Assembly (NCBI GenBank): GCA_029547805.1
Contig: JAKPOP010000014.1
Span: 124,001 to 188,000, forward strand
Source: Deltaproteobacteria bacterium
GTDB taxonomy: Bacteria > Myxococcota_A > UBA9042 > DTJE01
Direction: 5' to 3'
Length of the DNA stretch: 64,000 bases
The translations under genes were made by a program, and so were the position numbers. Below the pieces are notes generated by a model that made no database searches, was not told the origin of the DNA, and was given only the letters and a program-made list of their open reading frames with translations. This document shows positions 31,034-48,372 of the stretch, piece by piece (position 1 is the stretch's first letter; each line of letters opens with the position of its first letter).

Positions 31034-32031
31034 CATTCCTCCTCGGGGGATGGCCCCTGCATGTAGCCTGTCGCCAGTCGCAAGGTCATGCGTCCCTGGT
31101 CGTCGATCAGCGAGAAGAGGGGAGTGGGCAAGAAGGGCCATCGCTCCTTCCGACGATGCTCCTCCTGATCCAGGCCCTCGGCCAGGGCCGAGGAGAGGTG
31201 GCGGATCCGCCGGAGCAGCAGGGTTCGCTGCTCGGGGGTCGCCTCATAGTACTTCTGGAGCGCCAGGGTGATCCCCAGCGTTCCCCGGCCCTGGTTGTCA
31301 AAGATCTCGGCGACGAAGTTCGGGTCGATGGGGGCTCCGGGGATCCCCGCGGCGATCACGAAGTGGTCCCGGGCCTTCAGGCGACTGAGGGCCTTCTCCT
31401 CCTCCGACAGGCCCGTCAACTCGAAGTTGAGGTTGTAGCCGAGGTCCATGTGGAGACGCCAGTCCCGGGGGAAGCGTTCGATTCCCTCTTCCAGGAAGCG
31501 GTTGCTGTGGGCAATGACCTCCCGGTCCACGCTCTGACCCAGTTTCACCACCTGGGCGGCCCAGAGATAGACCCGGGGATTGTCGGGGTCCAGGGCCGTG
31601 ATGCTGTTCACGTAGGCGTCGAGCCACTCGAACCGCCGGTCCCCGAAGAAGTGCGACAGGAAGTAGGCATGGGCCCGGACGAACAGCAGGTCCGCCAGGG
31701 CACTGGGGTTTCCCAGGGAGAAGATCGCCAGCACCACCGGCGGTGGCAGGTAGAGAGTCTCGGCGGCGAGGCTGGACCCCAGGGCCCGGTGATGGGACCA
31801 CTCTTCCTCGGTGGCGAGGCCCTCGCCGATCCGCTGCCACAGCACCGGGTCCCGGACGGGGTTCATCGACGCGTAGCGGACGGCCACCAGTCCTGCCCGG
31901 GTCCCCAGGAACCCGACGGCGGCCAGGAGCAGGAAGGCCATGGTCGTCAGGGCGGCCCTCCGGGACCGCACCAGGGGGGCCAGTCCTCGCAGCAGGGGGC
32001 TCCGTTCCGTGATGGGTGCCTTCGGGGCCAT
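31033..32031 (-). CDS. membrane-anchored TPR-like protein, unknown
   Basis: A 332-residue protein with one N-terminal transmembrane helix (about 26-45) and an extracytoplasmic domain of helical repeats: NSITALDPDNPRVYLWAAQVV and GIERFPRDWRLHMDLGYNL have the spacing of TPR units. The C-terminus is DEGxx-poor and acidic. ATG 32031 follows GGGAG. It is the first gene of the six-gene operon that continues with epimerase, aminotransferase and ABC exporter. Similar 'hypothetical' TPR proteins are frequent in Myxococcota-type genomes. I do not infer a specific function. Confidence 0.65.
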   Translation of the reverse strand: MAPKAPITERSPLLRGLAPLVRSRRAALTTMAFLLLAAVGFLGTRAGLVAVRYASMNPVRDPVLWQRIGEGLATEEEWSHHRALGSSLAAETLYLPPPVVLAIFSLGNPSALADLLFVRAHAYFLSHFFGDRRFEWLDAYVNSITALDPDNPRVYLWAAQVVKLGQSVDREVIAHSNRFLEEGIERFPRDWRLHMDLGYNLNFELTGLSEEEKALSRLKARDHFVIAAGIPGAPIDPNFVAEIFDNQGRGTLGITLALQKYYEATPEQRTLLLRRIRHLSSALAEGLDQEEHRRKERWPFLPTPLFSLIDDQGRMTLRLATGYMQGPSPEEE

Positions 32032-32074
32032 CTTGCCGCTCCCTGGGTCTCCCCGGCCTCCGCCGGGGTCCCGA

Positions 32075-32083
32075 TGGTATCAT
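32075..32083 (+). promoter_or_regulatory. possible extended -10 promoter
   Basis: TGGTATCAT, about 30 bases before ATG 32113, is identical to the box at 15890-15898. No clear -35. Confidence 0.4.
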
Positions 32084-32112
32084 GACCGCAGTCCTGGTTG
32101 CCGGACGCCGTG

Positions 32113-33948
32113 ATGGAGCGCCCCCCTGCCCCCCGATGGAGCCGCCTGGCGGCCGTGGTCGCCGTGGGGATCGGCGGCCTCGCCGCCTGCTTCCCCTCGG
32201 CGGACCCGGACCTCTGGTTCCATCTGGCCCTGGGGCGCCAGATGGTCCAGCAGGGGATGCCGGCGGTGGAGGGGATCTGCGTCCTCTCCCAGGGGACTCC
32301 CTTCACGAACCACGAGTGGCTCTGGGACCTGGCGGCCTACGGGGCCTGGCAGGCCGGCGGACTGCCGGCCATCCTGGCCGGGCGGGTCCTCTCGGCGGCC
32401 CTCCTGTTCGGTCTCTGCTGGGCCCTTGCCCTTCGCCTGGGGGCCCGGCCGCTGGTGGCCCTGTGGACCCTGGTGCTGGCGGTGCCGGTCGTGCGGCCCT
32501 GGCTCGGGGATCGGCCCCACGTGCTGGCCTATGCCCTGGCGGCCGCCGTGGCCCTGGTCGTGCTGGACCGAAGGCCTCCCGGGCCCCGGCGCCTGGTGGC
32601 CCTGGGTCTGCTGACGGCCCTCTGGGCCAACGTCCACGGGTCCTTCCCGCTGGCCGTGGTGCTGGTGGCCCTTCCCTGGACCCGCCGGGAGACCTGGCGG
32701 GACCCGGTGGCCCGGAGACGCTGGGCGGCCGCCCTGGGGCTGGTGGTGATCGCGACGCTGTGCAATCCCTGGGGACCGGCGATCTACCGCACGGTCGCCC
32801 ACCACCAGGGGAAGGTCTATCGACTGCTCAGCGAGTGGGCCCCCTGGAACTTCGCCGAGGACCCGGCCCGGGACCTGGCGCTGGTGGTGCTGGTGGGCGG
32901 TGCGGCGGCGGGCTTCCTGGCCCGGACCCGCCGGCGGGCACTGGAGGAGGTGCTGCTGCTGGGGGTCTTCCTGGTCCCGTTCTGGCGGGCCGAGAAGTTC
33001 GCCCCGGGGCTGCTGGTGGGGGCCGTGCCGGTGCTGGCGGCCCACCTCTCCCTGCGGGCCTGGAACGTGCCGGTCCGGGTCCTCGGAGCGGCCGTGGCGG
33101 TGCTTCTCGGGGTCCTGGCCCGGCCGGGGGCCGTGCTGGACCTGTCGCTGGACCTTCAGGAGATGCCTCGGGAGGCCCTCGCCGATGCCCGGCAGTCGGG
33201 GATCCGGGGCCCGGTGTTCCATCCCTTCAATGTGGGGGGATACGTGGCCTTTTTCGGGTTTCCGGACATCCGGCCCCTGATCGATGGCCGGATCTACATC
33301 CACGGGGAGCAGGGCCTGGCGGCCTACTTCGGGGCCCTGGGTTCCGGGGAGCGCCTCCGGGAGATGATCGGGGCCCTCGGCATCCAGGGCGTCCTGGTGG
33401 ACCGCCAGGACGCCTCCTTCCAGGGCATGGTGGGGCGCCTGGACGGGGACCCGGAGTTCGGGCTGGCCTGGCTGGATGACCGCTTTGCCTGGTTCCGCCC
33501 GGTCGCGCAGGTGGCGCGGCCTTTCCGGGTCCTCCGGGCCGGGACGGACCCCCGCTTTCTGCTGGAACTGCCCGAGGACCAGGTCCCCCTGGCCCGGGCC
33601 GAGGCGGATCGGGTCTCGAGGACCGGCCGCGGCGAGGAGACCCGGGCCCTGGTGGAGGGGTTGCTGGACCTCCGGGAGGCCCGGATCGGATGGAGCCCCG
33701 AGACGGCCTTCCGCTCGGAGGTCCTCCGGGATCGGAGCCGGGAGGCGGCCGAAAGGCTTGCCGTGCTGGCTCGACGGCGTCCGGACGTGCCGATGTTCGG
33801 CTACTTCCGGGGCCTGGCCCTGGTGGGGGCCGGCGAGTGCGAGGAGGCCCGGAGGGTCCTGGTCCAGGCCCGGGCCTTCCCCGATGCCCGCCACCTGCTG
33901 GAACTGCTGGACCGACAGGGATGTCCCGCCGGGGGCGCGGGACGTTGA
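32113..33948 (+). CDS. polytopic membrane protein with C-terminal soluble domain
   Basis: About 611 residues from ATG 32113 (TTG 32098 and GTG 32110 are upstream alternatives). The first 340 residues hold about ten membrane helices, with PSADPDLWFHLALGRQMVQQG and TPFTNHEWLWDL after the first helix; this acidic first loop, and NVHGSFPLAVVLV later, recall GT-C type lipid-linked glycosyltransferases and related 'hypothetical' proteins. The rest is soluble, with VFHPFNVGGYVAFFGFPDIRPLIDGR, a stretch often seen in this family, and a helical tail. Function is unknown; a role in envelope glycosylation is plausible. The kinase-like gene follows 11 bases later. Confidence 0.72.
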   Translation: MERPPAPRWSRLAAVVAVGIGGLAACFPSADPDLWFHLALGRQMVQQGMPAVEGICVLSQGTPFTNHEWLWDLAAYGAWQAGGLPAILAGRVLSAALLFGLCWALALRLGARPLVALWTLVLAVPVVRPWLGDRPHVLAYALAAAVALVVLDRRPPGPRRLVALGLLTALWANVHGSFPLAVVLVALPWTRRETWRDPVARRRWAAALGLVVIATLCNPWGPAIYRTVAHHQGKVYRLLSEWAPWNFAEDPARDLALVVLVGGAAAGFLARTRRRALEEVLLLGVFLVPFWRAEKFAPGLLVGAVPVLAAHLSLRAWNVPVRVLGAAVAVLLGVLARPGAVLDLSLDLQEMPREALADARQSGIRGPVFHPFNVGGYVAFFGFPDIRPLIDGRIYIHGEQGLAAYFGALGSGERLREMIGALGIQGVLVDRQDASFQGMVGRLDGDPEFGLAWLDDRFAWFRPVAQVARPFRVLRAGTDPRFLLELPEDQVPLARAEADRVSRTGRGEETRALVEGLLDLREARIGWSPETAFRSEVLRDRSREAAERLAVLARRRPDVPMFGYFRGLALVGAGECEEARRVLVQARAFPDARHLLELLDRQGCPAGGAGR

Positions 33949-33959
33949 GGGAGGTGCCG

Positions 33960-34997
33960 ATGGAACGGGCCCTGCTGGCGGTGGACGGAGGCAACACGAA
34001 GACCATCGCGGTGCTGGTGGGGGAGGAGGGGGTCTTGCTGGGCCACGCCCGCACCGGGTCCTCCAACTGGCAGACCCTGGGCGAGGAGGGGGCCCGGCGG
34101 GCCCTGGGGGAGGTCCTGGGACCCCTGCTGGCCGAGGCGGACCGCCAGGGACGGCGGATCGGTGCGGCGGCCCTGGGGCTCACGGGTTGCGACCGGCCTC
34201 GGGACCAGGAGGTGCTTCGGGGCATCGTGGGGGGCCTGTTGCCGCGGGGACCCGGGGGGGCGGACCACCCGGAGGCCTCGTTCGTGGTGTTGAACGATGC
34301 CTTCCTGGTCCTGCGGGCCGGTACGGCCGACGACGTCGGGGTTGCGGTCTCCTCGGGGACCGGGGGCAACTGCGTCGCCCGGGGGCCCGACGGCCGGCGC
34401 CTCCAGGTGGGGGGGCTGACGACCGAACTGGGGGACGGGGGCGGCGCCGGGGACATCGCCCTGCGGGGGCTCCAGGCCGTGGGCCTGGCCCGGGACGGCC
34501 GGGGATGGCAGACGGTGCTGACGGACCTGCTGCTGGAGGTGGCGGGCCTGGAACGGGTCGAGGACCTGATGGACTTCGCGATTCCGGGCCCCGGGGGCCG
34601 GGACCCGGCGGAGGACCTCCCCCGGATCGCGGACCTGGCGCCCCTGGTCTTCGAGGCGGCACGGCAGGGGGACCCGGTGTGCCGACGCATCCTCGAGGAC
34701 GTGGGCCAGTCCCTGGGGCGCCAGGCGATCATCGCGGCCCACCACTTCTTTCGGCGGGAGGATGCCTTCCCCCTGGTGCTGGGGGGATCGGTGATCCGGC
34801 GCGGCGTCGTCGAGGACCTGTCCCGGGCGGTGGTGCTGGAGACCCGGACCCTCTTCCCGAACGTGCGCCCCGTCATGCTGTCCCACGAGCCCATCCTGGG
34901 GGCGGTGCTGCTGGCCCGGGACCTGCTGGACCCGCCGGTGCCCTGGGCGGCCGACCTGGTCGAGTCCCTGGGCCGGGACCTCGATGCCCTGCTGTGA
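33960..34997 (+). CDS. BadF/BadG/BcrA/BcrD-type ATPase, N-acetylglucosamine-kinase-like
   Basis: A 345-residue ASKHA-fold ATPase. The phosphate-1 loop is LAVDGGNTKTIAVLV, the phosphate-2 loop is VAVSSGTGGNCVARG, and the adenosine motif is VLGGSVIRRG. The pattern LTTELGDGGGAGDIALRGL (usually GGxGxxLGDEGSG) places it with eukaryotic-type GlcNAc kinases, not with the Fe-S dehydratase activators, whose CxxxC-type cluster ligands are missing. It is likely to phosphorylate an amino sugar in the cytoplasm, for example in wall recycling. It probably forms an operon with the preceding membrane protein. Confidence 0.82.
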   Translation: MERALLAVDGGNTKTIAVLVGEEGVLLGHARTGSSNWQTLGEEGARRALGEVLGPLLAEADRQGRRIGAAALGLTGCDRPRDQEVLRGIVGGLLPRGPGGADHPEASFVVLNDAFLVLRAGTADDVGVAVSSGTGGNCVARGPDGRRLQVGGLTTELGDGGGAGDIALRGLQAVGLARDGRGWQTVLTDLLLEVAGLERVEDLMDFAIPGPGGRDPAEDLPRIADLAPLVFEAARQGDPVCRRILEDVGQSLGRQAIIAAHHFFRREDAFPLVLGGSVIRRGVVEDLSRAVVLETRTLFPNVRPVMLSHEPILGAVLLARDLLDPPVPWAADLVESLGRDLDALL

Positions 34998-35021
34998 GGA
35001 GCCTCCTCGGCGGGGCCCGGG

Positions 35022-35975
35022 TCATGGGGCCGGGGGACCGGCCCACACCTGGACCCGGACGTGGCGGTCGGTCGTGGCCCCTGGTGGCAGCATCACGATG
35101 CCGACCTTCTGGTCGAAGGGCTCCTGGACCACATGGTCGTCCATGCCCTGCCAGGGCTCGATGCAGGCAAAGGGGGCCCCGGCATCGGACCACAGGCCCA
35201 GGTGGGGCATGTCGGGGAAGGCCACTTCGATGCCCATCGCCCCGTCGGGATCCTGGATCGCGACGACGCGCCGATCCGGCGGCACCGCCGAGAAGTCCAG
35301 CATGCAGGTGCGGTCCCACTCCTCCTCGGCCAGGACCAGACGCCCCCCCGGGAGCGGCCACCGGGTGCCGTCCAGAAAGCACCGGTCGTCGTTGCCGAGG
35401 CGCCAGACCTCCTCCGGCACCGTCAGCCGGCAGTCGGCCTTGGTCCCGGCGCCCGGCCGGAGGGGCAGCCGGAATCCCGGGTGCCAGCCCACCTGGAAGG
35501 GCATGGGTCGCGTGTCGTGGTTGGTGACCGACAGGACGACCTCCAGGGAGCGACCCTCCAGGCGATAGGCGACCTGGAACCGGAACCGCCAGGGGTACAT
35601 GGCCAGCGTCTCGGGGTCCCAGTCCCGGCGATAGACCAGCCGCCCCTGGTCCACCGCCACCTCGGCCAGGTCCATCGGGAGTCGCCGGAGGAACCCGTGA
35701 AGACCCGGGAAGCGGACCTCTTCGCCGGTGGTGCAGCGGGACTGGTTGTCGTGGAGGCCTCCGACCGCCGGGAACAGGATCGGGGCATGGCTCTTCCAGA
35801 AGCGGGGCGGGTCCGCCAGGTCCCCGTCGCGCCACAGCAGGCCCAGGACCTCTCCCTCGGGGTTTCGCCATCGCAACGAGACGACCTCGGCCCCCCGGCG
35901 ACGGACCGAGATTCCCATCTCCTGGGTCCCCAGGACGTCCAGATCCTGACCTTCGTCATGGTGCCAGCAATTCAT
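35022..35975 (-). CDS. aldose 1-epimerase-like protein (galactose mutarotase fold)
   Basis: A 317-residue beta-sandwich of the aldose-1-epimerase superfamily, which interconverts sugar anomers or binds sugars. Features: an N-terminal GISVRRRGAEVVSLRW, a SHAPILFPAVGGL segment equivalent to the substrate-loop Arg/Phe region, LHGFLRR with the catalytic His, and QVGWHPGFRLPL with the second His; CIEPWQGMDD near the C-terminus supplies the conserved Glu. This matches the LACX-like subgroup. ATG 35975 has GGGAGG upstream. Its promoter is divergent from that of the thioredoxin-like gene. Confidence 0.85.
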   Translation of the reverse strand: MNCWHHDEGQDLDVLGTQEMGISVRRRGAEVVSLRWRNPEGEVLGLLWRDGDLADPPRFWKSHAPILFPAVGGLHDNQSRCTTGEEVRFPGLHGFLRRLPMDLAEVAVDQGRLVYRRDWDPETLAMYPWRFRFQVAYRLEGRSLEVVLSVTNHDTRPMPFQVGWHPGFRLPLRPGAGTKADCRLTVPEEVWRLGNDDRCFLDGTRWPLPGGRLVLAEEEWDRTCMLDFSAVPPDRRVVAIQDPDGAMGIEVAFPDMPHLGLWSDAGAPFACIEPWQGMDDHVVQEPFDQKVGIVMLPPGATTDRHVRVQVWAGPPAP

Positions 35976-36011
35976 CGTGCCTCCCGGTCTGCGCGAGGGT
36001 CCTGGCGTGCA

Positions 36012-36039: not shown

Positions 36040-36046
36040 GGCCTCG

Positions 36047-36075
36047 TTGACAGGGGGCCGACCCTCTTGCAGATT
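36047..36075 (+). promoter_or_regulatory. predicted promoter of the thioredoxin-fold gene
   Basis: TTGACA (36047-36052), 17-base spacer, CAGATT (36070-36075), 30 bases before ATG 36105. The -35 is perfect and the -10 is weak. Confidence 0.45.
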
Positions 36076-36104
36076 CTTGCACGACACGAACCGGAGGAAC
36101 GACG

Positions 36105-36662
36105 ATGGCCTTGCTGGAATCGAGTCCGAGTCCCCTGGGGACCCCCCTCCCGGATCACCGGCTGGTTCAACCCGAGGGGGGAACGGTGGATCTCGGCTCC
36201 CTGGTCGGGGATCGGGGACTGCTGCTGGCGGTGACCTGCAATCACTGCCCCTATGCCCGGGCCGTGTGGCCTCGGCTGGTGCGCCTGGCCCGGGAGTTCC
36301 GGCCTCGGGGCATCCCCACGGTCGCCGTGAATCCCAACCTGCATCCCGACTACCCGGAGGACTCCCTGGAGGGGATGGTCCGGGCCCGCGAGACCTGGGG
36401 GATCGACTTCCCCTATCTGGCCGATTCGGACCAGTCCCTGGCCAGGACCCTCGGGGCGGTCTGCACCCCCGAGTTCTTCCTCTACGATGCCCGCCGCCGC
36501 CTGGTCTATCACGGGCGCCTGGACGATTCCTGGCAGGACGAGTCCCGGGTGACCCGCCAGGACCTCCGGGAGGCCATGGAGGCCCTGGTCGATGGGCGAC
36601 CGGTGTCGGCCGAACAGTTCCCATCGATGGGCTGCAGCATCAAGTGGATCGAGGAGGCGTGA
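36105..36662 (+). CDS. thioredoxin-fold (AhpC/TSA-like) protein
   Basis: A 185-residue cytoplasmic protein of the peroxiredoxin/TlpA-like class. LLLAVTCNHCPYARAVW carries a CxxC pair (Cys45 and Cys48) at the thioredoxin active-site position, followed by PTVAVNPN and, later, the cis-Pro region AVCTPEFFLYDARRRLVYHG. The SFNxxHPDYPEDS-like segment and total length fit the widespread 'thioredoxin family protein' subgroup with a CNHCPY motif, probably a reductant-dependent peroxidase or oxidoreductase. ATG 36105 follows GGAGGAACGACG. Its 3' end overlaps the convergent symporter gene by 23 bases. Confidence 0.88.
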   Translation: MALLESSPSPLGTPLPDHRLVQPEGGTVDLGSLVGDRGLLLAVTCNHCPYARAVWPRLVRLAREFRPRGIPTVAVNPNLHPDYPEDSLEGMVRARETWGIDFPYLADSDQSLARTLGAVCTPEFFLYDARRRLVYHGRLDDSWQDESRVTRQDLREAMEALVDGRPVSAEQFPSMGCSIKWIEEA

Positions 36663-38115
36663 TCAGGGATCCCTCCCCGGCTGCCAGATCGGCCCTGGGC
36701 CCCCCCTGGGGATCCAGGTCCGGTCCCTGGACCGGCCTCCGGGACGACCGGCCACGGCCGAGAAAGAACGCCGCTCCAACGACCAGCCCGAGGTAGATGG
36801 GTTCGATGCCCAAGAGGTAGGTCCCGTCGTCGCCCAGGTATCGGGAGGCCAGCCAGGAGGTCGTGACGACCAGGACCGTGGCCATCTGGAGAAGCGTCCT
36901 TCGGGGGGGGAGGCGGAGTCGCGGCCAGAAGGCCCCCAGGACCGGGAACAGCAGCGTGGCGGTGCTGATCGTGCCCATGTGGTGCCACAGGCGGACGACG
37001 GACCGCGACGCCAGGGCGATGACCAGCGAGGCGACTGCGATCGCCACGAGGGCCCAGCGGGTGGCCGTGGCCTCCCGGTCCCGAAAGCGGTCCAGGCGGC
37101 CCAGGAGGTCGCGACCGAGGGTCGAGGCGGCGACGAAGAGATAGCCCTCCACGGTGGACATCACCGTGGCCAGCAGCGCGACCAGGAAGACCCCCATCAG
37201 ACCGGGTGGCAGCACCGCTCGTGCCAGTTGGGGATAGGCCTCGGCCGAGGGGATGTCCCCGAGGTCCACCAGGGCCCGGGCATAGAGGCCCGTGAACGTG
37301 GTCATCAGGTCGAACAGGACCCAGAAGGCGATGGACCACGCGATGCCACGCCGGGCCACGGCGGGGCTTCTGGCGGCGAAGCAGTGCTGGTAGAAGGTCG
37401 GTTCCACCAGGGTCGAGGACGCGACGAAATACCAGAGGAGGATGGACTGGGCCGGGAGCCCGCCATGCCAGGTCCAGTGACCCGGCGGCACCGAGGCCTG
37501 CAGGAAGGACAGGCCCCCGCGGGTCCCGACCAGGATTCCGAGGACCAGCGCGAACCCCCCATACATGCAGGCGAACTGCAGGAACCCGGTGCGGATGATC
37601 GTCCGGAACCCCCCTCGCCAGACATAGAGGACCGAGAACAGGGTCATCAGCGAGGCCGAGACCTCCAGGGATCCGCCGAAGACCTCCCGGGTCAGCACGC
37701 CGAGCTCCAGCAGGTAGGCCGCCGGGAGGGACGTGACGGTCACCACGATGGAGGCCAGGAGGCCCGGCCCGGGGCCGTGGACCGCCCGGACCCGGTCCGG
37801 CAGGGTCAGTGCCCGCGACTGGCAGGCCCGACCGGCCAGAAAGACGGCGAAGAGGGCCGCGTAGAGGTAGTACGGGACCCCAAAGACGAGCCAGTTCGAG
37901 ATCCCATGGTCGTAGGCGTACTCCCCGACGCCCAGGACGCCACCGTAGAAGGTGGAGACCGTGGTGGCCACGAAGGCCGGCAGGGTCAGGCGCCGTCCGG
38001 CCAGCAGGTAATGGCCCCGGGCGGGGCTCCCGGTGGCCTCGGGCCTCCGCAGGAATCCGAGGCCCAGGGTGACCCCCAGGTAGAGGACCACGATGGCGAC
38101 GTCCAGGGCGGCCAT
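36640..38115 (-). CDS. sodium:solute symporter (SSS family), third gene of the TPP-riboswitch operon
   Basis: A 491-residue inner-membrane transporter with about 13 helices and the SSS (SSF) fold: an N-terminal VLYLGVTLGLGFL, HYLLAGRRLTLPAFVATTVSTFYGG (helix 1 sodium-site region) and GVFLVALLATVMSTVEGYLFVAASTLGRDLL, the family signature around the conserved Ser/Thr pair. SSS proteins carry sugars, amino acids, pantothenate and other vitamins with sodium. It lies 19 bases after a lipoprotein gene, which in turn follows an outer-membrane barrel gene led by a TPP riboswitch. Import of thiamin or a thiamin precursor is therefore the best guess. SSS-type thiamin transporter candidates under THI elements have been proposed before from comparative genomics (ThiV); direct homology is not tested here. 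Confidence 0.85.
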   Translation of the reverse strand: MAALDVAIVVLYLGVTLGLGFLRRPEATGSPARGHYLLAGRRLTLPAFVATTVSTFYGGVLGVGEYAYDHGISNWLVFGVPYYLYAALFAVFLAGRACQSRALTLPDRVRAVHGPGPGLLASIVVTVTSLPAAYLLELGVLTREVFGGSLEVSASLMTLFSVLYVWRGGFRTIIRTGFLQFACMYGGFALVLGILVGTRGGLSFLQASVPPGHWTWHGGLPAQSILLWYFVASSTLVEPTFYQHCFAARSPAVARRGIAWSIAFWVLFDLMTTFTGLYARALVDLGDIPSAEAYPQLARAVLPPGLMGVFLVALLATVMSTVEGYLFVAASTLGRDLLGRLDRFRDREATATRWALVAIAVASLVIALASRSVVRLWHHMGTISTATLLFPVLGAFWPRLRLPPRRTLLQMATVLVVTTSWLASRYLGDDGTYLLGIEPIYLGLVVGAAFFLGRGRSSRRPVQGPDLDPQGGPRADLAAGEGSLITPPRST

Positions 38116-38134
38116 GGGGACCTGCCTTCTGCCG

Positions 38135-39469
38135 TCAGAGGGGCAGGATCAGGCTGAGGGAGGACTCCTGTTCATTGGCGACCACCACGACGCCCCCATC
38201 GGAGGTCGCCGAGATGCCCTCGGGCCGGACCGTGCTGCCGTTCTCGTCCGCCGCGCCTCGCTCCTCCCGACCGACGGCGATGGCCTGCACGAAGGTCGGG
38301 GCCCCCGGGTCCGAGAGGTCATAGACGGCCACGGCGCCGGCATGTCGCAGCGTGAAGGCCCCATGGACCCGGCCCCCCCGGACGAAACACGCCACCGAGT
38401 CGGGGCTGAACAGGGGGGACCCCTCGTCGATCACTCGAGGGAGATCGGCCGGGATGTCCCGGGGAGAGATCTCGGTGGTCGATCGAATCGTGCCGGCGCC
38501 GTCCAGGATCGAGAAGGTGTCGTTCCACTCGCCGGCCACCACGAAGAACTCGCTTCCGTCGGGTCCCACGCAGCGCGCCACGCCGTCGGGCCAGGGGAGG
38601 GCCCCCAGGGCATTGGCAGGCAGGGGCACGATCCGCAGGTCGTCGGAGGAGGGGGCCGCCTTCGCCGCGACCTCCGAGACGCGGAACAGGGCGACCTCGT
38701 GGGAGTCCTGCAAGGTCGCCACGACCAGGTCATGGTCCTTCGCAAAGACGATGCTCTCCGGTTCCCGGGGCCCGGTGCCTCCGTCCCTCATCGGGATGCG
38801 GACCTGTTCCTGGGCCGAGGTGGGCCCGGCAGGCAGACTCAGGATGCTGATGGAGGGGATGGCCCCCGGCACCTCGCACTTGCCCCAGGCCTCGGGGCCG
38901 TCCCGCTCGTTGGCCACGGCCACCAGCCGGTCGTCATCGGAGATGGCCACGGCGTCGGGCATCGGCCCCACCTCCACCTCGGCCAGGATGGTCCCGAAGG
39001 ACTCCGAGTCGGTGATGTCGAAGAAGACGGCCATGCCGCCGCAGCGCACCTGTTGTCCGTCGCCGTTCACCTCCAGGATCGTCCGGGTGGCGACGGCCCA
39101 GGTGCCGTCCGAGGACACGTCCAGGTTTGTCATCTCGCTCTCGGTGGGGTCCGCCGGGTAGAAGGCCTTCTCCCGGGCCCATGCCAGTCTTCCGTTCGCG
39201 ATGCGAAACAGCGTCGCCTTGCGGGCCTTCGAGGACAGGAGCACCGCCCCCTGGCCTCCGGGCAGCACCCGGACCGCCTCGGCATTGTCGGCCTTGCCCA
39301 TCTGGTAGGTGTCCGCCAGATGCCCGGTCCATCGCGTGTCCCCGGTCGTCCCGTCGTGGGAGTCCTCGCAGCCCGTGGCCACCGCACCCAGGAGCCCTCC
39401 GATGACCAGGAGGCCTCCCATCCCGATCCCCCGTCGGTCCCGCACTCTTGCCTGAAGCCTGCTCGCCAT
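38135..39469 (-). CDS. lipoprotein, beta-propeller-like, in the TPP-riboswitch operon
   Basis: A 444-residue protein with a lipoprotein signal (GAVATGC, lipobox Cys at about 34). The rest has repeated beta-propeller-type blades: LDVSSDGTWAVATRTI, AVAISDDDRLVAVANERD, ESIVFAKDHDLVVATLQD, SPDSVACFVRGGRVHGAF and ISATSDGGVVVVANEQES. This resembles the choice-of-anchor-I/SMP-30-like propellers of Myxococcota-type genomes. It is probably in the periplasm or on the outer-membrane surface. ATG 39469 has a strong AAGGAGGTG site. It sits between the barrel and symporter genes, with 15 and 19 bases between genes, so it may be the ligand-binding or linking part of the uptake system. Confidence 0.78.
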   Translation of the reverse strand: MASRLQARVRDRRGIGMGGLLVIGGLLGAVATGCEDSHDGTTGDTRWTGHLADTYQMGKADNAEAVRVLPGGQGAVLLSSKARKATLFRIANGRLAWAREKAFYPADPTESEMTNLDVSSDGTWAVATRTILEVNGDGQQVRCGGMAVFFDITDSESFGTILAEVEVGPMPDAVAISDDDRLVAVANERDGPEAWGKCEVPGAIPSISILSLPAGPTSAQEQVRIPMRDGGTGPREPESIVFAKDHDLVVATLQDSHEVALFRVSEVAAKAAPSSDDLRIVPLPANALGALPWPDGVARCVGPDGSEFFVVAGEWNDTFSILDGAGTIRSTTEISPRDIPADLPRVIDEGSPLFSPDSVACFVRGGRVHGAFTLRHAGAVAVYDLSDPGAPTFVQAIAVGREERGAADENGSTVRPEGISATSDGGVVVVANEQESSLSLILPL

Positions 39470-39484
39470 GAAACACCTCCTTGT

Positions 39485-40765
39485 CTAGAAACGGACCTCG
39501 GCCTGAACGACCAGTTCGTTGTTCCGGACCGGCTGGTCGGCGATCCCCAGGGCCGGCACGCCGTTCTTCTCCCAGAGGAACGTGTACTCGACCCGCAGCC
39601 GCAACAGGTCCCGGTACACCTCCGTGATCACCGCCAGGGTCAGCACGTCCCAGTCCCAGGAAGGGGCGTTGGCCACCGCCGGGGAACGGAGGGCCGTCTC
39701 CCCGTCGATGGGGTCCGCGCTTCCCAGGACCCGGTAGGCCTCGTAGCGGACCAGCGGTTCGATGGTCGGGATCCAGGGGGTCTGCCGCAGGACCGGGATG
39801 GCCCAGGACACCTGGCCGTAGGCCCCCCAGCGGGTCAGGAGGTCCTCCTGGAACACGATGGCCTCGGCCCAGGCGTGGACCCCGTAATCCTCGTAGCCCA
39901 CCCGGCCGCCGTACCAGCGAAAGCGCCCGTAGGATTCCTGCGACGGGTCATGGCCCGGAAGCCGGCGATAGTTCATGAGTCCGGAACGGAGCACGTCGGT
40001 GCCGCCCTGGGCGGCCAGGCGTCCCCAGAAGGCGAAGGCCTCGGCGAAGGCCCCCCAGACCACGAGGCGCAGGCGGCCGCCCCCGACGGGGCCGTTTCCC
40101 GAAAACGGCCGCGCGGGACCGTATGCCAGCACCGACAGGGTGCTGGGCTGATTGCGGGAGTCCTGGACGCTGACCAGGTCCAGGGGCCGCATCATCGCCA
40201 GGGAGGCCCCCAGTTCGAAGGCCACTCGCCTGGCCACGTCGAAGGTCGCTTCGTAGGCCAGGTGGGCCTCCGAGTCTCGCCAGGCGATCATGCCCACCAG
40301 GGGATACCGCTCGGACCGCCGGTAGACCTTCACGATGGGCGGCGCCCAGCCGGCCTCGACGTGGTGTCCCCACCAGGAGGGTCCCCGGGAACGCCAGTCG
40401 ATCCAGACGGCGTTCACCATGGCCCGGGAGAGCGTGAAGGCCACCTCGGTGTTCAGTTCCAGGGTCTCTCCCACGCCCAGCCGGAAGGCCAGGGCGAAGG
40501 AGTCGATCTCGACGAAGGGGCTCCGGGTTCCGAGGGTCTTCGTGTCCGACGGGGAGTCATATCCCGGGCCGCCCTGGCCCTGGAGGTCGTGCAGTTCCAG
40601 TCTCACGGCCCCCTTGAAGGCCAGGCGGAACAGGCCCGATCGCAACTCGAAGCGCGGCGGGGCCATGGAGTCGGCGAACTCGTCCCGATCGGGCCGGGCC
40701 ACCGCCGGAGTCGATGGCAGCAGCCACGCGGCGCAGAGGACCAGGGCCGTGATCGAACGGGACAT
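39485..40765 (-). CDS. outer-membrane beta-barrel protein under TPP riboswitch control
   Basis: A 426-residue barrel. The signal peptide ends at about residue 24 (PAVA-R). Amphipathic strands follow, such as GVRLELHDLQG-type segments, FALAFRLGVGETLELNTEVAF and a C-terminal NELVVQAEVRF that ends in Phe, the usual barrel-assembly signal. No TonB box or plug domain is seen, so it is porin-like, unlike the TonB receptors that import thiamin in Bacteroidetes. Start ATG 40765 is preferred over GTG 40771 because the GGGGAGG ribosome site ends six bases before it. That site lies in a hairpin just downstream of a TPP aptamer. It is the first gene of a barrel-lipoprotein-symporter operon. Confidence 0.8.
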   Translation of the reverse strand: MSRSITALVLCAAWLLPSTPAVARPDRDEFADSMAPPRFELRSGLFRLAFKGAVRLELHDLQGQGGPGYDSPSDTKTLGTRSPFVEIDSFALAFRLGVGETLELNTEVAFTLSRAMVNAVWIDWRSRGPSWWGHHVEAGWAPPIVKVYRRSERYPLVGMIAWRDSEAHLAYEATFDVARRVAFELGASLAMMRPLDLVSVQDSRNQPSTLSVLAYGPARPFSGNGPVGGGRLRLVVWGAFAEAFAFWGRLAAQGGTDVLRSGLMNYRRLPGHDPSQESYGRFRWYGGRVGYEDYGVHAWAEAIVFQEDLLTRWGAYGQVSWAIPVLRQTPWIPTIEPLVRYEAYRVLGSADPIDGETALRSPAVANAPSWDWDVLTLAVITEVYRDLLRLRVEYTFLWEKNGVPALGIADQPVRNNELVVQAEVRF

Positions 40766-40770
40766 CGTCA

Positions 40771-40790
40771 CCTCCCCGGCGCAGGGGAAG
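40771..40790 (-). promoter_or_regulatory. ribosome-site-sequestering hairpin (riboswitch expression platform)
   Basis: Minus strand CTTCCCC, loop TGCGCC, GGGGAGG. The seven-pair stem (one G-U) buries the ribosome site of ATG 40765. A second CTTCCCC lies slightly upstream. This points to control at translation initiation. Confidence 0.6.
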
Positions 40791-40829
40791 CGCCCGATTC
40801 CGTCCTGGAGGGGAAGCGGCGAGGCGCCT

Positions 40830-40911
40830 GTCGATCCCTACGCCGGTATTACCCGGATCAGGTGTTGCGGGTCTGTTCTCAGATCGCCGGTCTGGCGACC
40901 ACCCCGTCAAC
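40830..40911 (-). promoter_or_regulatory. TPP riboswitch (THI element)
   Basis: Minus strand aptamer with all conserved blocks in order: a P1 strand GTTGA, GGGGTG, CTGAGA, ACCCGCAACACCTGATC, GGGTAATACC, GGCGTAGGGA and the closing P1 strand TCGAC, which pairs with GTTGA. These match the thiamin-pyrophosphate riboswitch consensus almost base for base. It lies about 65 bases upstream of ATG 40765, so TPP should repress the barrel-lipoprotein-symporter operon. Confidence 0.95.
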
Positions 40912-40921
40912 AAGCGCCAAC

Positions 40922-40950
40922 AGTTTACGACCGTCGATGGGACGAGGCAA
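40922..40950 (-). promoter_or_regulatory. predicted promoter of the TPP-riboswitch operon
   Basis: Minus strand TTGCCT (40950-40945), 17-base spacer, TAAACT (40927-40922). The RNA start falls near 40915, just before the 5' edge of the aptamer. Confidence 0.6.
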
Positions 40951-41382
40951 CCCCACGAGGGAGATCTGGAGGCCCGAGGCCACCGATCCGGCTCCTTGGC
41001 GGGGGTGGCACCCTGGGCACGCTCAACGGGTCCGGGCCATGGTTTCTCGATGGAGGAGAAGGGCCCCGACTCCCATCGCGTCTACGAGCCGCCGCCGGTG
41101 CTGGTGACGGTCCACGCCGGGCCCTTCGGGTGCCTCCCGGAGGGGAACGCCCCGATGCAGCCCAGGGGCGCCTCCATCGAGGCCCGATGGGACCCATCGG
41201 CGGCCATCCCGGACGGCGGCGTCCGGACCTCGAGGAAGATGAACCGCCCCAAGGACCAGCCCCGATGTTTTGTCATCTGTCCCCGAGTTCCTTGGAACCA
41301 GAGCGAAGAAAACGGGTTCCGTCGGCGCACGTTCCTGGTTCGTGTTCGAGAAAATCGGGCGGGTCACGGCGACCCCGTGGGG
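40951..41382. other. about 430-base region without a recognised gene
   Basis: Lies between the riboswitch promoter and the end of the M29-like gene, both on the minus strand. Short open frames exist on both strands but show no family features. A GACCC-CACG-GGGTC hairpin at 41371-41384 sits at the stop of the M29-like gene and could help terminate its transcript, although no T-run follows. Confidence 0.4.
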
Positions 41383-42510
41383 TCATGTCACGTAGCGCCC
41401 GTCTCGCATCAGAGGAAGCGTGTCGCCGTTGGCCAGGACCAGGTCCACGACCGGCACCTGGATGCGGGGCTGCAGGGAAGGCAGATAGACCCGATCGATG
41501 TGCACCACCGCTTCGGGGTTTCTGAAATCCCTGGGCCCCACCTGCCCCCCGAAGTGGTCGCTGCGTCCGAACGCGACATGCAGGCCCAGTTTCTCGTCCA
41601 GCAGGACCTTCCCGATGGGCTCGATGCCCATCTCGGCCAGGACTCCGAGTCCCAGTTCCGCCAGGTTGCCACAGGCCGGCTCCCGGGACAGGGCGTCCCG
41701 TTCCCGCGAGGCCACGGGGCCGTCCCCCTCGACGGAGACGGCCCGGTTTCCCTCCACCCGGTAGCGCACCACCTCCCCGTCCAGTTCCACCGGGAGGACC
41801 CCCTCGCTTCGGGAGGGTTCCTCTTCCCCTTCGTAAGGCACGATGTATGCCTCCCCCGACGGGAGGTTTCCCACCTGCCCCGGCTCCCGAAGCAGGCCGC
41901 TGCTGCGATGGGCCTTGCGGAATCGCAGGTCCAGCCGGAGGTCCGACGCCTCCCGGCCGTCCACCAGGAAATGGAGTCGGGCCTCGGTGGCCTCGTCCAG
42001 CAACCGGGCCAGCCGCTCCACCCGCCGGTGCACCTCCTCCAGGTCCAGGCGCAGGGCGGGCACCATCGCTTCCGTGAATCCCGGCAACGTGGCCCCCCGG
42101 AACCCGATTCGGGCCGCCAGCCGTTTCAAGGGAGCCGTGGCCGAGAAGCGGGTGGGGGCCAGCACCAGGGGCCGGGAAGCCAGGAGGTCCCAAAGGGGTC
42201 TGGTCGCCTCCGGGTCCAGTTCCCCGGCGGAACCGGGCATCCGTCGGGGGTCCAGGAGCCACGCAACCTCCGGAAGGTCGGCATTGTTGCGTCGGGCGTT
42301 CCGAATCCCGAAGATCCGGGCCTGGAAACGCCCTCCCTCCAGGGAGGCCACCCACCCAGCGGCCAGTTGTCGGAGCCCCTGCCAGGTCGGGGTGTCAGGG
42401 ACCGCCTCGTCCGGCAGGTCCACCAGCACCAGCACCGCTCCTTCCTCGGGGGACGGAAGGAAGACCCGTTGCAACAGCGCCTCCAGTTCGACACGGCTCA
42501 GGTTCTCCAC
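41383..42510 (-). CDS. M29-like aminopeptidase (thermophilic metalloprotease family)
   Basis: A 375-residue protein of the M29/aminopeptidase T relatives (COG2309-type), which remove N-terminal residues using two metals. The C-terminal half has the characteristic pattern: LPSGEAYIVPYEGEEE (metal Glu region), CGNLAELGLGVLAEM, GKVLLDEKLGLHVAFGRSDHFGG (metal Glu and His residues) and AVVHIDRVYL. The N-terminal half is a Rossmann-like domain. It lies 63 bases downstream of the large lipoprotein gene on the same strand. The normal M29 length is about 400 residues. The true substrate may not be a peptide, as many members are uncharacterised. Confidence 0.78.
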   Translation of the reverse strand: MENLSRVELEALLQRVFLPSPEEGAVLVLVDLPDEAVPDTPTWQGLRQLAAGWVASLEGGRFQARIFGIRNARRNNADLPEVAWLLDPRRMPGSAGELDPEATRPLWDLLASRPLVLAPTRFSATAPLKRLAARIGFRGATLPGFTEAMVPALRLDLEEVHRRVERLARLLDEATEARLHFLVDGREASDLRLDLRFRKAHRSSGLLREPGQVGNLPSGEAYIVPYEGEEEPSRSEGVLPVELDGEVVRYRVEGNRAVSVEGDGPVASRERDALSREPACGNLAELGLGVLAEMGIEPIGKVLLDEKLGLHVAFGRSDHFGGQVGPRDFRNPEAVVHIDRVYLPSLQPRIQVPVVDLVLANGDTLPLMRDGRYVT

Positions 42511-42573
42511 GTAAACCTCCCAGTCGGGGCCGTGGGATGAGCGGAAACCCGGGATATCGGGGGGCGCCCCGGG

Positions 42574-45459
42574 TCAGGGGCCCGTCCGGCAGGAGACCTG
42601 GTAGTCCCAGGCGGTGCCCGGCTCGCCGCCGATGACCCGGACCGTGAAGAAATCGGTCCGTCCCTTCACGAACAGACCCGAGACGCTCCCGCCTCCGGGG
42701 CCCGCGATCCCCCCGGGGTAGCGAGGGTTGCCCTCGTAGGAGGAATCGCCACGCCACCCCGTCGAGAGGACCAGGAGGCCGTCGGGATACTCGGCCAGGA
42801 ACATGTCCGGGATCGAGTAGGCATCGAACTGGAGGTCGAACACCGCCCCCTTGGGAATCATCGAGATGTCCCAGGTGTCCACGGTCCCCGAGGAGCCCCC
42901 GGACCCGGCGGCCTGCCAGGTGTTGCAGATGGTCAGGTCGTACTCCCGCTCCGGGACCTCGCCGATGACCACCATCGCAGTGCCGTCGGCCAGGTTCTGT
43001 CCGTCGGCCTGGGCCACGGCATAGACCCCGAAGGACCCCTCGGCGGCGAAGCGGTGGTAGATCGTCGTCCCGGCCTGGCCCGCCTGGACCGGCAGGACCT
43101 GCTGGCCCGAGGCGGTCTCGGACCCGTCCCCGAAGTTCCAGGACAGGGTCACGGCGCTCTGGCCCGCCGGGATCCCCACCACATCGATCTGGAACGGGTA
43201 CTCGCTTTCGGGGTCCCCGGAGAGGAAGGATGGCACGATGGTCAACTGGGTCCCGACCGTCACCGAGGCCCGGGCATCGGCCATCTGTTCCCCCGTGTCG
43301 GGCCGGATCACCTGGGCCGTCACGATGTAGGACCCCGGTGCGGTCCAGGCGTGGTCGATGGAGGTCCCCGCCTTTCCACCTGCCACGGCCTGGTCCTCTT
43401 CTCCGGTGGTCCCATCCCCAAAATCCCAGACAAAGCGGACCGTTGCCACCTCCGAGGGGATCCGGGTCGCCTGGAGGGTGAAGGGGTAGGTCTGTCCGAC
43501 CTGTCCGCCCTCGATCCGGGTCGGATCGATGGTCAGCGAGGTGTCCACGATCACCTCGACCTCGGGCATCTTGTCCGGGTCCCCCATTCCGTAGGGCAGC
43601 CCGACGACACCAAAGAAGTCGTCATAGACGCGAACGTTGAGGGCGTAGCGGCCGTCGTCCCCCTCCTTGGGCTTCCACTCCTGCTGGGCGATGCCGTCTT
43701 GGGGCATCGTGGTCTCGATCAGGGTCCGCATCGGGGGGGTCGGGTTGGCCTCGGTCGGTTCCGGGAAGGCCACGAAGACCGTCCGCAGGCCCCCGGCCCC
43801 GATGGCGTCGGCCCGCAACTGAACCACCTCGTCCACCGTGACCTTCCGGGGACTCGCCCGGAGCCTCGGTTTCGGGGAGTTCTTGAGCACCCGCTTGTAC
43901 TGGAACAGCACCACGTCGATGCTTCCCATCGAGGGCAGACCCAGGCGACGCAGCAGGCGGTTCACCGGGTCCAGCGTCTCCATGAGCGGCGAGAGGTCCG
44001 CCACGACCCCCGCATAGACGTTCCACTCGGGTCCCTTGTAGGACCGATCCGTCGGGTCGAAGGGGAGCGCCAGGGCCAGGTCCAGGCCCCCGAAGATCTT
44101 CAGGCTCACGGTCTTCGCCGCCAGGAGCTCCCAGTGGGCCAGGGTGATCGACTTGGCCAGGATGGCCCGGAAGAAGGGCTCCAGGGAGACCTTGAACTCG
44201 TTCTTCATCGCGCCGCTCGCTCCCCCCAGCGTGACGCCCTCGCCGGTGTCCTGGCGATCTCGGATGGGGTAGAAGCCCTGGCCCGCGTCGTAGCCAAAGC
44301 CGATCTTCACCTCGACCCCCTTGTCCACCTTGGGGCCGTTCAGTTTCAACTCCCCGGCGGCATAGGAGACCTTCAGTTCGAAGCCAAACTCGGGCTTCAC
44401 GCTGGGGGCGATCCCCACCGGGCCCAGCAGCGGGACGAAGGCGAAGGGGATCGTTGCCACCTCCTGGGAGCACTCCAGTTTGCCGGTCAGCCCCCCGGTC
44501 AGGGAGACCTCGCCGAGGGTCCCCACGATGGCCGCCTGGCCCCGGAGGTAGAACTCGAACTTCTCGACCGTGCTGGAGACCCAGCCTCTTGTGATCCGGA
44601 TCTCGACCACGGGCCAGAGCTCGAAGCGCTGCTCCAGCGAGAAGCCCGAGATCCCGACCTGGACCGTGCTGCCCTCGGTCTTGCACGTGAGGCCCGAGAG
44701 GGACAGCGGCGACCGGATCTCGCCATCTGCCGCCGCCGGCGTCTCCTCGGGAGCCTCTCGGGACCAGTCCCGGGAGGTCCGGGTCACCCGGACGCCATCG
44801 TCGTCCAGCACCCCCTCGAAAATGACTGGCCCGCCCTCCGCCACCACCGAGAGTTCCTCGAAGACCTCGGTCAGGCTCGCGGGGACCGTTTCGTAGGTCC
44901 CGCGACTGCTGCCCTCGTCCACCACGTCCACCACGCGGTCCAGCAACCCCCCGGTCCAGCCCCCGAACAGCACCGAGCCGACCCCGACGGCCTCGGTGGC
45001 CCCGGTCTTCCGCAGGGTGACCCAGGCCCGTTCCCGGTTCTCCGGGTCCGGGTAGGCGATGCCTTCGAGGGCGTCCCGGGGGACCACTACGGCGCCGGCG
45101 GCCATCTCGGCGATGGCCACGACCACGACCGTGGGCGGCAGGGTCCCGGCCTTCACGGTGATCGTGGCCGACCCCAGGTCTCCGGTCATCGCCGTGACGA
45201 GCCCCGAGTCGTCCACCGTTGCCACCTCGGGGGCGCTGGACTCGAAGGACAGGGCGACACCGTCCAGCACCCGACCGTTCCGGTCATGGACCTTCGCCTG
45301 GATCCGGGCCGTCTCGCCCGCCTCCCGGAACACCAGGAATCCCTCGGAGACGATCTCGATGTAGCCTTCGTCCGGTGGTGACGACGACCCGCAGCCCCCA
45401 AGAGTCGACAAGGCCCCAAGAGCCAGCACCACATGGACCCAGAAGGATCGGCCGGACAT
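42574..45459 (-). CDS. large lipoprotein with Ig-like (BIG2) and PKD domains
   Basis: About 961 residues. The lipobox is STLGGC near residue 22. Residues 40-130 form a BIG2-type Ig domain (VALSFESSAPEVATVDDSGLV then GSATITVKAG). The large middle (about 150-560) is beta-rich with no recognised family, including a Cys-containing stretch LTCKTEGSTVQVGISG. Two PKD-like domains follow (VRFVWDFGDGTTGEED and VTLSWNFGDGSETASG), then a unique C-terminal domain (YDLTICNTWQAAGSGG to YQVSCRTGP) with a likely disulfide. ATG 45459 is preferred over ATG 45486, which has no ribosome site. It is likely to be exposed at the cell surface, with a role in adhesion or binding; this is an inference from domain type. 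Confidence 0.8.
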   Translation of the reverse strand: MSGRSFWVHVVLALGALSTLGGCGSSSPPDEGYIEIVSEGFLVFREAGETARIQAKVHDRNGRVLDGVALSFESSAPEVATVDDSGLVTAMTGDLGSATITVKAGTLPPTVVVVAIAEMAAGAVVVPRDALEGIAYPDPENRERAWVTLRKTGATEAVGVGSVLFGGWTGGLLDRVVDVVDEGSSRGTYETVPASLTEVFEELSVVAEGGPVIFEGVLDDDGVRVTRTSRDWSREAPEETPAAADGEIRSPLSLSGLTCKTEGSTVQVGISGFSLEQRFELWPVVEIRITRGWVSSTVEKFEFYLRGQAAIVGTLGEVSLTGGLTGKLECSQEVATIPFAFVPLLGPVGIAPSVKPEFGFELKVSYAAGELKLNGPKVDKGVEVKIGFGYDAGQGFYPIRDRQDTGEGVTLGGASGAMKNEFKVSLEPFFRAILAKSITLAHWELLAAKTVSLKIFGGLDLALALPFDPTDRSYKGPEWNVYAGVVADLSPLMETLDPVNRLLRRLGLPSMGSIDVVLFQYKRVLKNSPKPRLRASPRKVTVDEVVQLRADAIGAGGLRTVFVAFPEPTEANPTPPMRTLIETTMPQDGIAQQEWKPKEGDDGRYALNVRVYDDFFGVVGLPYGMGDPDKMPEVEVIVDTSLTIDPTRIEGGQVGQTYPFTLQATRIPSEVATVRFVWDFGDGTTGEEDQAVAGGKAGTSIDHAWTAPGSYIVTAQVIRPDTGEQMADARASVTVGTQLTIVPSFLSGDPESEYPFQIDVVGIPAGQSAVTLSWNFGDGSETASGQQVLPVQAGQAGTTIYHRFAAEGSFGVYAVAQADGQNLADGTAMVVIGEVPEREYDLTICNTWQAAGSGGSSGTVDTWDISMIPKGAVFDLQFDAYSIPDMFLAEYPDGLLVLSTGWRGDSSYEGNPRYPGGIAGPGGGSVSGLFVKGRTDFFTVRVIGGEPGTAWDYQVSCRTGP

Positions 45460-47047: not shown

Positions 47048-47075
47048 GGGGAGAATCCTTCCTTCGGCCCGATGC

Positions 47076-47104
47076 CTTCTATGCCGAACGGGGCGGCATT
47101 TCAA
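47076..47104 (-). promoter_or_regulatory. predicted promoter of the DUF1846 gene
   Basis: Minus strand TTGAAA (47104-47099), 17-base spacer, TAGAAG (47081-47076), 28 bases before ATG 47047. Confidence 0.55.
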
Positions 47105-48104
47105 GCCCGGGTGGGAGCGACTTCAAGGCCTCGAGCCTGCCGTTGCCGGGATGGGCCGCGCCTGGTCCATATGGAAACGGCCCGTACCTCGAATGCCGTC
47201 CGATGACTTTATCGAAAAATTCAAGGGTTCCGTTGCAACTGGGCGAACTGATGCCCTGGATTGCCGCCCGGGTCTCCACTCCCTCTCTGCCGTGCATCGC
47301 GGCCAACATGGAGCCCGATGGTTCGATGGCGCGGCACGTACGCCGGGAAAAGGCGGCTCGGTTGCGGTGGTTGCCTCCCGCAGTGCACCATGCAGCGTTT
47401 TTTCCCGTGTGGGGCCTAGATGGTGCCTGCGTTGTCCTGGAGAAGGACCCCGAAGAAGGGATGGGCCTGGCCCGGAGACTGGCGGCACTGGTCATTGAGG
47501 CCCGATCGGTTGCTCTGTTCTTCGTGCCTGGACCGGGCAAGCCTGTGATCCTGTCTCTGGACGGGCCTGGGGATCTCCTCCAACGGAAACCTGCGGCCGG
47601 GGATCACTCGATGGGGTGCCCTGATTGCCGAGCCAATTGCACAACCGTCTCCGGAAGCGATGATCCTCGGTTTTCATGGGGACGAAAGCCTTGGGGTGTC
47701 ACGGTTCGTTTCCTGCTCCGGCTGGCGAACCCCGTGCCGGGGGCAGTCCATCGGCCGAGCGATCTGCGGCTGTCGCTGCTCGATAACCATCGTCCTCCAG
47801 GGATCCGTCCTCCCTATCTTCATGCGGTCGAGCGGCTGGTGGGGGTTGCCCTAGGCCGAGCATTTGGGCGCGACCCGGACATTGTCCTTCGGGGAGCTGC
47901 GGAGGATTCCCCCAAGGAGCCTGTTCGTGTGGCACGCCGAAGACGGACGTTTAACGGGAAGAGAATGCCCCTCCGAGGGAACGTGAGGGACAGATCCCGC
48001 TGGGCCTGGTGGCTTCGACCCATGCCGCCGAAGAGGTGCTCTCTCCCTTTTTCTCTCTTCGCTATCGACCAGTTGGAGTTTTTCGAGGACCTGGGGTTTC
48101 CGGT

Positions 48105-48120
48105 AGTGTGCATGCACACT
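48105..48120. repeat. 16-base perfect palindrome
   Basis: AGTGTGCATGCACACT reads the same on both strands. It could be an operator relic or chance. Confidence 0.5.
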
Positions 48121-48354: not shown

Positions 48355-48372
48355 TCCCCTGCACTTCGTGTC

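Follow-up and report, generated by a model that had tools for sequence, protein, structure and literature searches.

A TPP riboswitch and the outer-membrane genes behind it most likely serve the acquisition of vitamin B1 in Myxococcota that lack ThiC, and with it the means to synthesize the pyrimidine moiety, a reading to which we assign a probability of about 0.7 on the genomic evidence, with thiamin or a close vitamer as the probable substrate and uptake as the probable direction. The operon lies on the minus strand of a 64,000-nucleotide stretch of DNA (here called the window, whose positions are used throughout), and its three genes follow the aptamer in the order barrel, lipoprotein, and sodium:solute symporter (SSS), with spacers of 15 and 19 bases (Table 1). 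A sequence-only reading of the same DNA had described a near-consensus TPP aptamer ahead of three closely spaced genes on one strand, and this layout was borne out. The RF00059 covariance model was matched over its full length (model positions 1 to 105; window positions 40916 to 40818) above the gathering score of 54.3 bits, with the conserved CUGAGA and ACCUGAU cores present. This aptamer was the sole Rfam match in the window and the only TPP aptamer returned by an RF00059 search of the 4.08-Mb genome. As also stated in that reading, no thiamin gene adjoined the operon, the neighbors being a redoxin-like gene, an aldose-epimerase-like gene, and PKD/DUF proteins.

TABLE 1. Features of the riboswitch-controlled operon, in window positions
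Feature	Position	Strand	Basis
TPP riboswitch aptamer (THI element)	40818..40916	-	Rfam RF00059, 64.5 bits, E = 2.3e-10
Leader, aptamer to start codon	40766..40829	-	CUUCCCC segments able to pair with Shine-Dalgarno GGGGAGG (40777-40771)
Outer-membrane beta-barrel (predicted), 428 aa from GTG, signal peptide	39485..40771	-	ORF, 20 homologous loci, AlphaFold2
Seven-bladed beta-propeller lipoprotein (predicted), 444 aa, putative lipobox ATGC	38135..39469	-	ORF, AlphaFold2 (pLDDT 89)
SSS-family sodium:solute symporter, 491 aa	36640..38115	-	PF00474

The Shine-Dalgarno sequence was predicted to be paired with a probability of approximately 1.0 (ViennaRNA), whether or not the aptamer was constrained. 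A terminator scan of the window leader detected neither a U-run nor an intrinsic terminator, and the leaders of all 10 loci tested were short and without a U-run; an intrinsic terminator was rejected as the expression platform. Short leaders free of U-run terminators, together with a start region open to sequestration, suggest that the riboswitch acts on translation. The barrel gene may start at the GTG at 40771 or at an ATG at 40765; the latter is likelier because it lies 12 bases after the start of the GGGGAGG sequence. A promoter claimed ahead of the aptamer was not recovered by a sigma-70 consensus scan of positions 40700 to 41150, a consensus that may not suit this G+C-rich genome.

No Pfam or NCBIfam family was matched by the barrel. 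Its AlphaFold2 model (pLDDT 79, pTM 0.80) was that of a 16- to 18-stranded porin in which a plug is absent, and, together with the signal peptide, this agreed with the porin-like barrel lacking a TonB plug that had been described from the sequence. Foldseek matched the model to the porin fold with an E value of 1e-10, a similarity of fold only, and comparison with OmpF, OmpC, OprO, and OprP gave a VIA Z of approximately 24 and an rmsd of 3.1 to 3.4 Å over approximately 295 to 317 residues at approximately 8 to 12% identity. A TonB-dependent receptor was considered and rejected, because the protein has 428 residues, no plug, no Pfam plug or barrel match, and a predicted porin fold instead of 22 strands. 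The second gene had been read as a propeller lipoprotein, with which the predicted seven-bladed fold (VIA Z of approximately 35 against seven-bladed propellers) and the putative lipobox are in accord. BtuG was absent among the VIA matches listed for this protein, to which it may nonetheless be related. Sequence profiles (Pfam, NCBIfam) gave sub-threshold propeller-type matches alone, and the sequence relatives found were restricted to a surface-layer protein and hydrazine synthase beta. Circularly permuted homologues exist among the loci described below, which supports a closed propeller ring.

Related loci were sought in 377 Myxococcota genomes and, by pattern scan, in the contigs of GTDB species. 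This survey yielded 20 distinct loci with the barrel, which was spread over six families and present in 19 of the 377 genomes. A TPP aptamer was located approximately 30 to 100 bases upstream of the barrel in all 20 loci (16 above the gathering score and 4 just under it, at 49 to 53 bits with E < 1e-6), and the lipoprotein was the next gene in 18 of the 18 loci long enough to tell. No barrel without an adjoining aptamer was found in the 377 genomes or in the scan of GTDB species contigs. The SSS gene occupied the third position in the window only; in one genome (G132) a carrier of the TLC (ATP/ADP translocase) family stood third, 7 bases after the lipoprotein gene. The three-gene operon was therefore dropped as a conserved unit, and the best reading is that aptamer, barrel, and lipoprotein form this unit, the inner-membrane carriers being interchangeable. 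Thus, the full envelope path of the sequence-only reading, for which the same three genes were to be sought behind THI elements in relatives, was supported as a conserved arrangement for the barrel and lipoprotein but not for the SSS gene, which elsewhere was unlinked or had a TLC carrier in its place. Of the papers searched, those that mention both a TPP riboswitch and a porin did not, judging by title or abstract, concern a link between the two.

Presence of the barrel was correlated with a lack of ThiC. ThiC was detected in 0 of 19 barrel genomes versus 293 of 358 others (Fisher P value = 7e-14) and, among genomes at least 90% complete, in 0 of 12 with the barrel versus 193 of 223 without it (P value = 2.5e-10); these tests treat genomes as independent and leave shared ancestry uncorrected, the barrel occurring in six families. 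The genus-mate G001 keeps ThiC, and where synteny would place the operon it has unrelated DNA. The proposed link to thiamin uptake is thus supported by an aptamer at 20 of 20 loci and by the absence of ThiC from 19 of 19 barrel genomes, with thiamin and its transport as the likely substrate and activity.

The role of the symporter required separate consideration. It matched PF00474 (E = 2.6e-23; 83 bits versus a cut-off of 22.8), but family models identified it as a generic SSS member and nothing narrower, and SiaT (5nv9) was among its matches at the profile level only. Close homologues (at least 40% identity) occurred in eight other genomes, seven with the barrel and one without, always unlinked to the barrel. 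They had neither a riboswitch of their own nor thiamin neighbors; a search for such homologues under their own TPP aptamer found none, and the window alone among the loci examined has an SSS gene behind a TPP riboswitch. The generic family placement and these features of the homologues would be expected if only the barrel and lipoprotein were regulated by B1 and the symporter were a chance passenger for an unrelated solute. On the other hand, ThiC was absent from all nine genomes with a close SSS gene, window included (P value = 1e-6, uncorrected for phylogeny), these genomes represent three families (f1, f40, and f59), eight of them have the barrel, and the spacer in the operon is just 19 bases. 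We therefore regard a passenger as unlikely and the window symporter as a probable inner-membrane carrier of a B1 vitamer. A role of the regulated pair other than uptake, for example in adhesion, in export, or in hydrolyzing B1 derivatives at the surface, is in our view very unlikely: propellers are multifunctional, and the lipoprotein is weakly similar to choice-of-anchor I and lactonase-type propellers, but confinement of the pair to ThiC-less genomes and the general porin fold of the partner favor acquisition.

With respect to the cargo, it is somewhat doubtful that the window genome imports the pyrimidine HMP, or HMP plus thiazole, rather than intact thiamin, as in SAR11, whose SSS protein ThiV follows a TPP riboswitch and likely carries HMP (PMC11452348). 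The window genome, although without ThiC, has a thiM-thiE-thiL cluster and could therefore make TMP from imported halves, and barrel genome G105 is similar, with thiM-thiE-thiD and a CytX-like gene. Yet ThiE was missing in 17 of the 19 barrel genomes, among them all seven f40 genomes with a close SSS homologue; HMP should be useless there, and a single family-wide cargo points to thiamin or its phosphates. The ThiG of the window genome was set aside as proof of thiazole synthesis because its contig (C15) deviates in composition (G+C 0.659; tetranucleotide distance of 0.355 versus 0.11 to 0.25 for pieces of the window and 0.17 for contig C4) and because the genus-mate gave a weak match only. 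Import of an intact thiamin phosphate (TMP or TPP) would suit genomes that keep ThiL in the absence of TPK: TPK (PF04263) was absent from all 30 genomes tested and was discarded as the activating kinase, with 0 of 19 barrel genomes having it, and ThiL exceeded its cut-off in 15 of 19. The TLC-family carrier of G132 and the match of the barrel model to the phosphate and pyrophosphate porins OprP and OprO point the same way. Since OmpF and OmpC match equally well, the OprP match means a porin fold and no more; moreover, relatives able to make thiamin likewise lack TPK, and phosphate esters are not known as SSS substrates, making this cargo improbable.

Under the favored reading of vitamin B1 acquisition, low TPP would cause the riboswitch to permit translation of the mRNA, giving rise to the plug-less barrel and the propeller lipoprotein. 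The two would work as partners at the outer membrane, the propeller capturing or passing on the vitamer and the barrel acting as a selective channel into the periplasm. In the window genome the symporter would then move the vitamer over the inner membrane, presumably coupled to sodium; in other genomes this step may be encoded elsewhere or by a different carrier. A porin without a plug is not coupled to an energy source at the outer membrane, so that accumulation must arise at the inner membrane or from a binder. The lack of TPK in the genomes tested also weighs against this reading, in which imported thiamin would have to be converted to TPP. We give a little less than an even chance to the more specific proposal that thiamin (or its phosphate) is bound by the lipoprotein and handed to a plug-less porin dedicated to this task, an arrangement that would constitute a new, TonB-independent class of importer replacing ThiC-dependent synthesis in several Myxococcota lineages.

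To our knowledge, the passage of B1 vitamers over the outer membrane of Gram-negative bacteria beyond Bacteroidetes is mostly undescribed, and unspecific porins are often taken as the route. The barrel and lipoprotein, which lack family names, were linked to a TPP riboswitch at every locus found, and occurred only in ThiC-less genomes, offer a concrete, testable candidate for what looks like a previously undescribed B1 uptake system without TonB machinery. If so, the lipoprotein-plus-barrel principle would reach past TonB systems and past Bacteroidetes, and the barrel operon could be a genomic marker of B1 auxotrophy for Myxococcota in environmental and animal-gut samples. The predicted barrel has the fold of OmpF, OmpC, OprP, and OprO; unlike these porins, it belongs to no Pfam porin family, is exclusively linked to a TPP riboswitch, and has a lipoprotein partner.

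The combination of transporters had been presented as new, which holds for the barrel-lipoprotein pair; SSS proteins had already been proposed to carry thiamin or its pyrimidine, including ThiV in SAR11, with Tyr78, Asp139, and Phe254 (SiaT numbering) as ThiV/SSSP marker residues (PMC11452348), so the novelty rests on the outer-membrane pair. At the family level the window symporter resembles ThiV, both being preceded by a TPP riboswitch and both coming from organisms without ThiC; it differs in that ThiV is an inner-membrane carrier on its own and in that homologues of the window symporter elsewhere lack the riboswitch. In Bacteroides, thiamin uptake under a TPP riboswitch involves the TonB-dependent receptor OMthi and PnuT (PMC5613172). 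The window operon likewise places outer- and inner-membrane genes, here probably for thiamin, under such control, but its barrel is a 428-residue protein of the porin type, predicted to be plug-less, it includes a predicted propeller lipoprotein, and the inner carrier is an SSS protein here and may be another one elsewhere. In Bacteroides vitamin B12 uptake, the propeller lipoprotein BtuG sits on BtuB, and lipoprotein-capped TonB-dependent transporters were called apparently exclusive to Bacteroidetes in that work (PMC10404256, PMC6143338). Like BtuB-BtuG, the Myxococcota pair combines a predicted seven-bladed propeller lipoprotein with a predicted outer-membrane barrel under riboswitch control, probably also for a vitamin; unlike it, the pair is linked to B1 rather than B12, its barrel is predicted to be plug-less where BtuB is TonB dependent, and no specific sequence relation between the two pairs was seen.

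The sequence-only reading had called the TPP aptamer of this operon near-consensus, and a covariance-model search recovered it as a full-length RF00059 element. It was the sole Rfam match of the window, and the window genome (4.08 Mb, 96.7% complete) yielded no second TPP match. The three genes behind it, on one strand, were separated by 15 bases (barrel-lipoprotein) and 19 bases (lipoprotein-SSS), as had been described, and no thiamin genes were present among the neighbor genes in the window, again in agreement with that reading. The promoter it had claimed was not seen in a sigma-70 consensus scan of 40700-41150, a negative of little weight in a G+C-rich genome.

Features of the window and of the compared loci (L numbers)
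Feature	Location	Strand	Remark
TPP aptamer	40916-40818	minus	RF00059 full-length, 64.5 bits
Barrel gene	39485-40771	minus	no match in Pfam or NCBIfam
Lipoprotein gene	38135-39469	minus	weak propeller matches only
SSS gene	36640-38115	minus	PF00474 match
DUF1846 gene	45515-47104		complete; PF08903 + PF20921
Shifted composition	48000-56000		G+C 0.634
Permuted lipoproteins	L064:479-1888; L065:3286-4689		two species, one genus
TLC (ATP/ADP translocase) family gene	L062:6285-7526		genome G132
AIR-synthase-like gene under TPP aptamer	L013:7888-8985		genus-mate G001
AIR-synthase-like gene under TPP aptamer	L014:4169-5801		genome G003, same family as the window's

Of 52 genomes from the window's class, 12 carried TPP aptamers. 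Most preceded ThiC-like genes (translations read; profile confirmation for G021, G036, and G040), and those of G018, G027, and G033 preceded the barrel-lipoprotein pair known from the window. The barrel alignment picked out eight loci among GTDB species contigs, in MAGs labeled Myxococcota, Myxococcales, Deltaproteobacteria, or Proteobacteria, and a profile search gave full barrel matches in 19 of 377 phylum genomes, a weak match interrupted by stops in G044 (E = 3.4e-4) being left out. In the 20 distinct loci obtained by pooling both searches, an aptamer lay immediately 5' of the barrel every time, above the gathering score in 16 and at 49 to 53 bits (E < 1e-6) in L031, L032, L062, and L067. 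The lipoprotein gene came next in all 18 loci of sufficient length. In two of these, the lipoprotein was circularly permuted, with the equivalent of window residues 278-439 preceding that of ~60-267, an order compatible with a closed propeller.

Of the 377 phylum genomes, 293 had ThiC; it was absent from all 19 barrel genomes (Fisher P = 7e-14, or 2.5e-10 for the better genomes, P values that ignore ancestry), which span six families (f1, f7, f9, f22, f29, and f40). In f1, the window genome was the sole ThiC-less member among 13 listed, its genus-mate being among those with ThiC. ThiE was missing from 17 of the 19, ThiL was above the cut-off in 15, and full-length ThiG occurred only in G018 and in the window genome, there on contig C15, whose G+C and tetranucleotide composition is unlike the rest of the genome and which may be contamination or foreign DNA. 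The window genome retained a thiM-thiE-thiL cluster, and the barrel genome G105 had thiM-thiE-thiD adjoining a CytX-like gene that scored under the curated cut-off. A search of 30 Myxococcota genomes, some of them ThiC-less, turned up no TPK (PF04263). Separately, G001 and G003 each have an AIR-synthase-like gene under a TPP aptamer, with a stand-alone thiamine-phosphate synthase (ThiN) domain behind it, clearly so in G003; both genomes also carry ThiE matches and an ordinary ThiL.

The check proposed with the sequence-only reading, a search of relatives for the three genes behind THI elements, came out positive for the aptamer, barrel, and lipoprotein; an SSS gene directly after the lipoprotein was found in the window alone. 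In G132, a TLC-family carrier of 413 aa followed the lipoprotein by 7 bases and might instead carry a phosphorylated B1 vitamer across the inner membrane; at the remaining loci, downstream genes were unrelated or none was close. Within the phylum sample, the window SSS protein had its closest homologues (~40 to 51% identity) in seven f40 genomes, all with the barrel, and in G334, which lacks it. No TPP aptamer was found near these homologues and no thiamin genes adjoined them (translations read); ThiC was absent from all nine close-SSS genomes, the window's included (P = 1e-6).

G001 was collinear with the window on both operon flanks (~84% identity over 29467-35992 and 41382-45125; 79% over 36044-36647). 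From the redoxin gene to 41.08 kb, however, it had ~4.2 kb of other sequence in place of the operon, so that gain or loss of the operon here occurred inside the genus. In the barrel tree, the window protein grouped with f9 proteins (support, 84/87), deeper branches being poorly resolved. Elsewhere in the window, a stretch of lowered G+C had a tetranucleotide profile shifted from that of the remaining window, and the DUF1846 gene near the operon was ~90% identical in DNA to the genus-mate's copy.

AlphaFold2 models recovered both proposed folds, a porin-like barrel lacking a TonB plug (pLDDT 79) and a propeller lipoprotein (pLDDT 89), the latter predicted to be seven-bladed. The best solved matches of the barrel model were porins of many kinds (OmpT, OprP, and chitoporin among the best by Foldseek; OmpF, OmpC, OprO, and OprP at Z ~24 by VIA), pointing to a plugless porin fold of 16 to 18 strands; this likeness gives no indication of the cargo. 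The best-conserved barrel stretch in the alignment, GxGGxGxDSx(T/S)DTxTxGTRS (residues 65-84), lies within a long, poorly predicted loop behind the first long strand and may serve in binding or in contact with a partner. In the window leader, the Shine-Dalgarno GGGGAGG paired with an upstream CUUCCCC in both modeled states, so that the calculation alone shows no switch. Ten leaders tested had 5 to 76 bases from the aptamer model end to the start codon (some start codons being uncertain) and none had a U-run, which would favor translational rather than terminator control.

Since the outer-membrane pair appears TPP-repressed and is exclusive to ThiC-less genomes, it is best read as a B1 uptake system. 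Intact thiamin or a thiamin phosphate fits the whole family better than HMP, because most barrel genomes also lack ThiE; the window genome could use HMP as well, via its own ThiE and ThiM. We found no description of a TPP-controlled porin in a literature search mostly without subscription journals. The window SSS gene, possibly an orthologue of ThiV (PMC11452348) and a putative B1-vitamer carrier, fits that precedent. BtuB-BtuG (PMC10404256) likewise combines a propeller lipoprotein with a barrel, and OMthi-PnuT (PMC5613172) resembles the window pair in regulation, but both rely on a TonB-dependent receptor, whereas the barrel here has a predicted porin fold.
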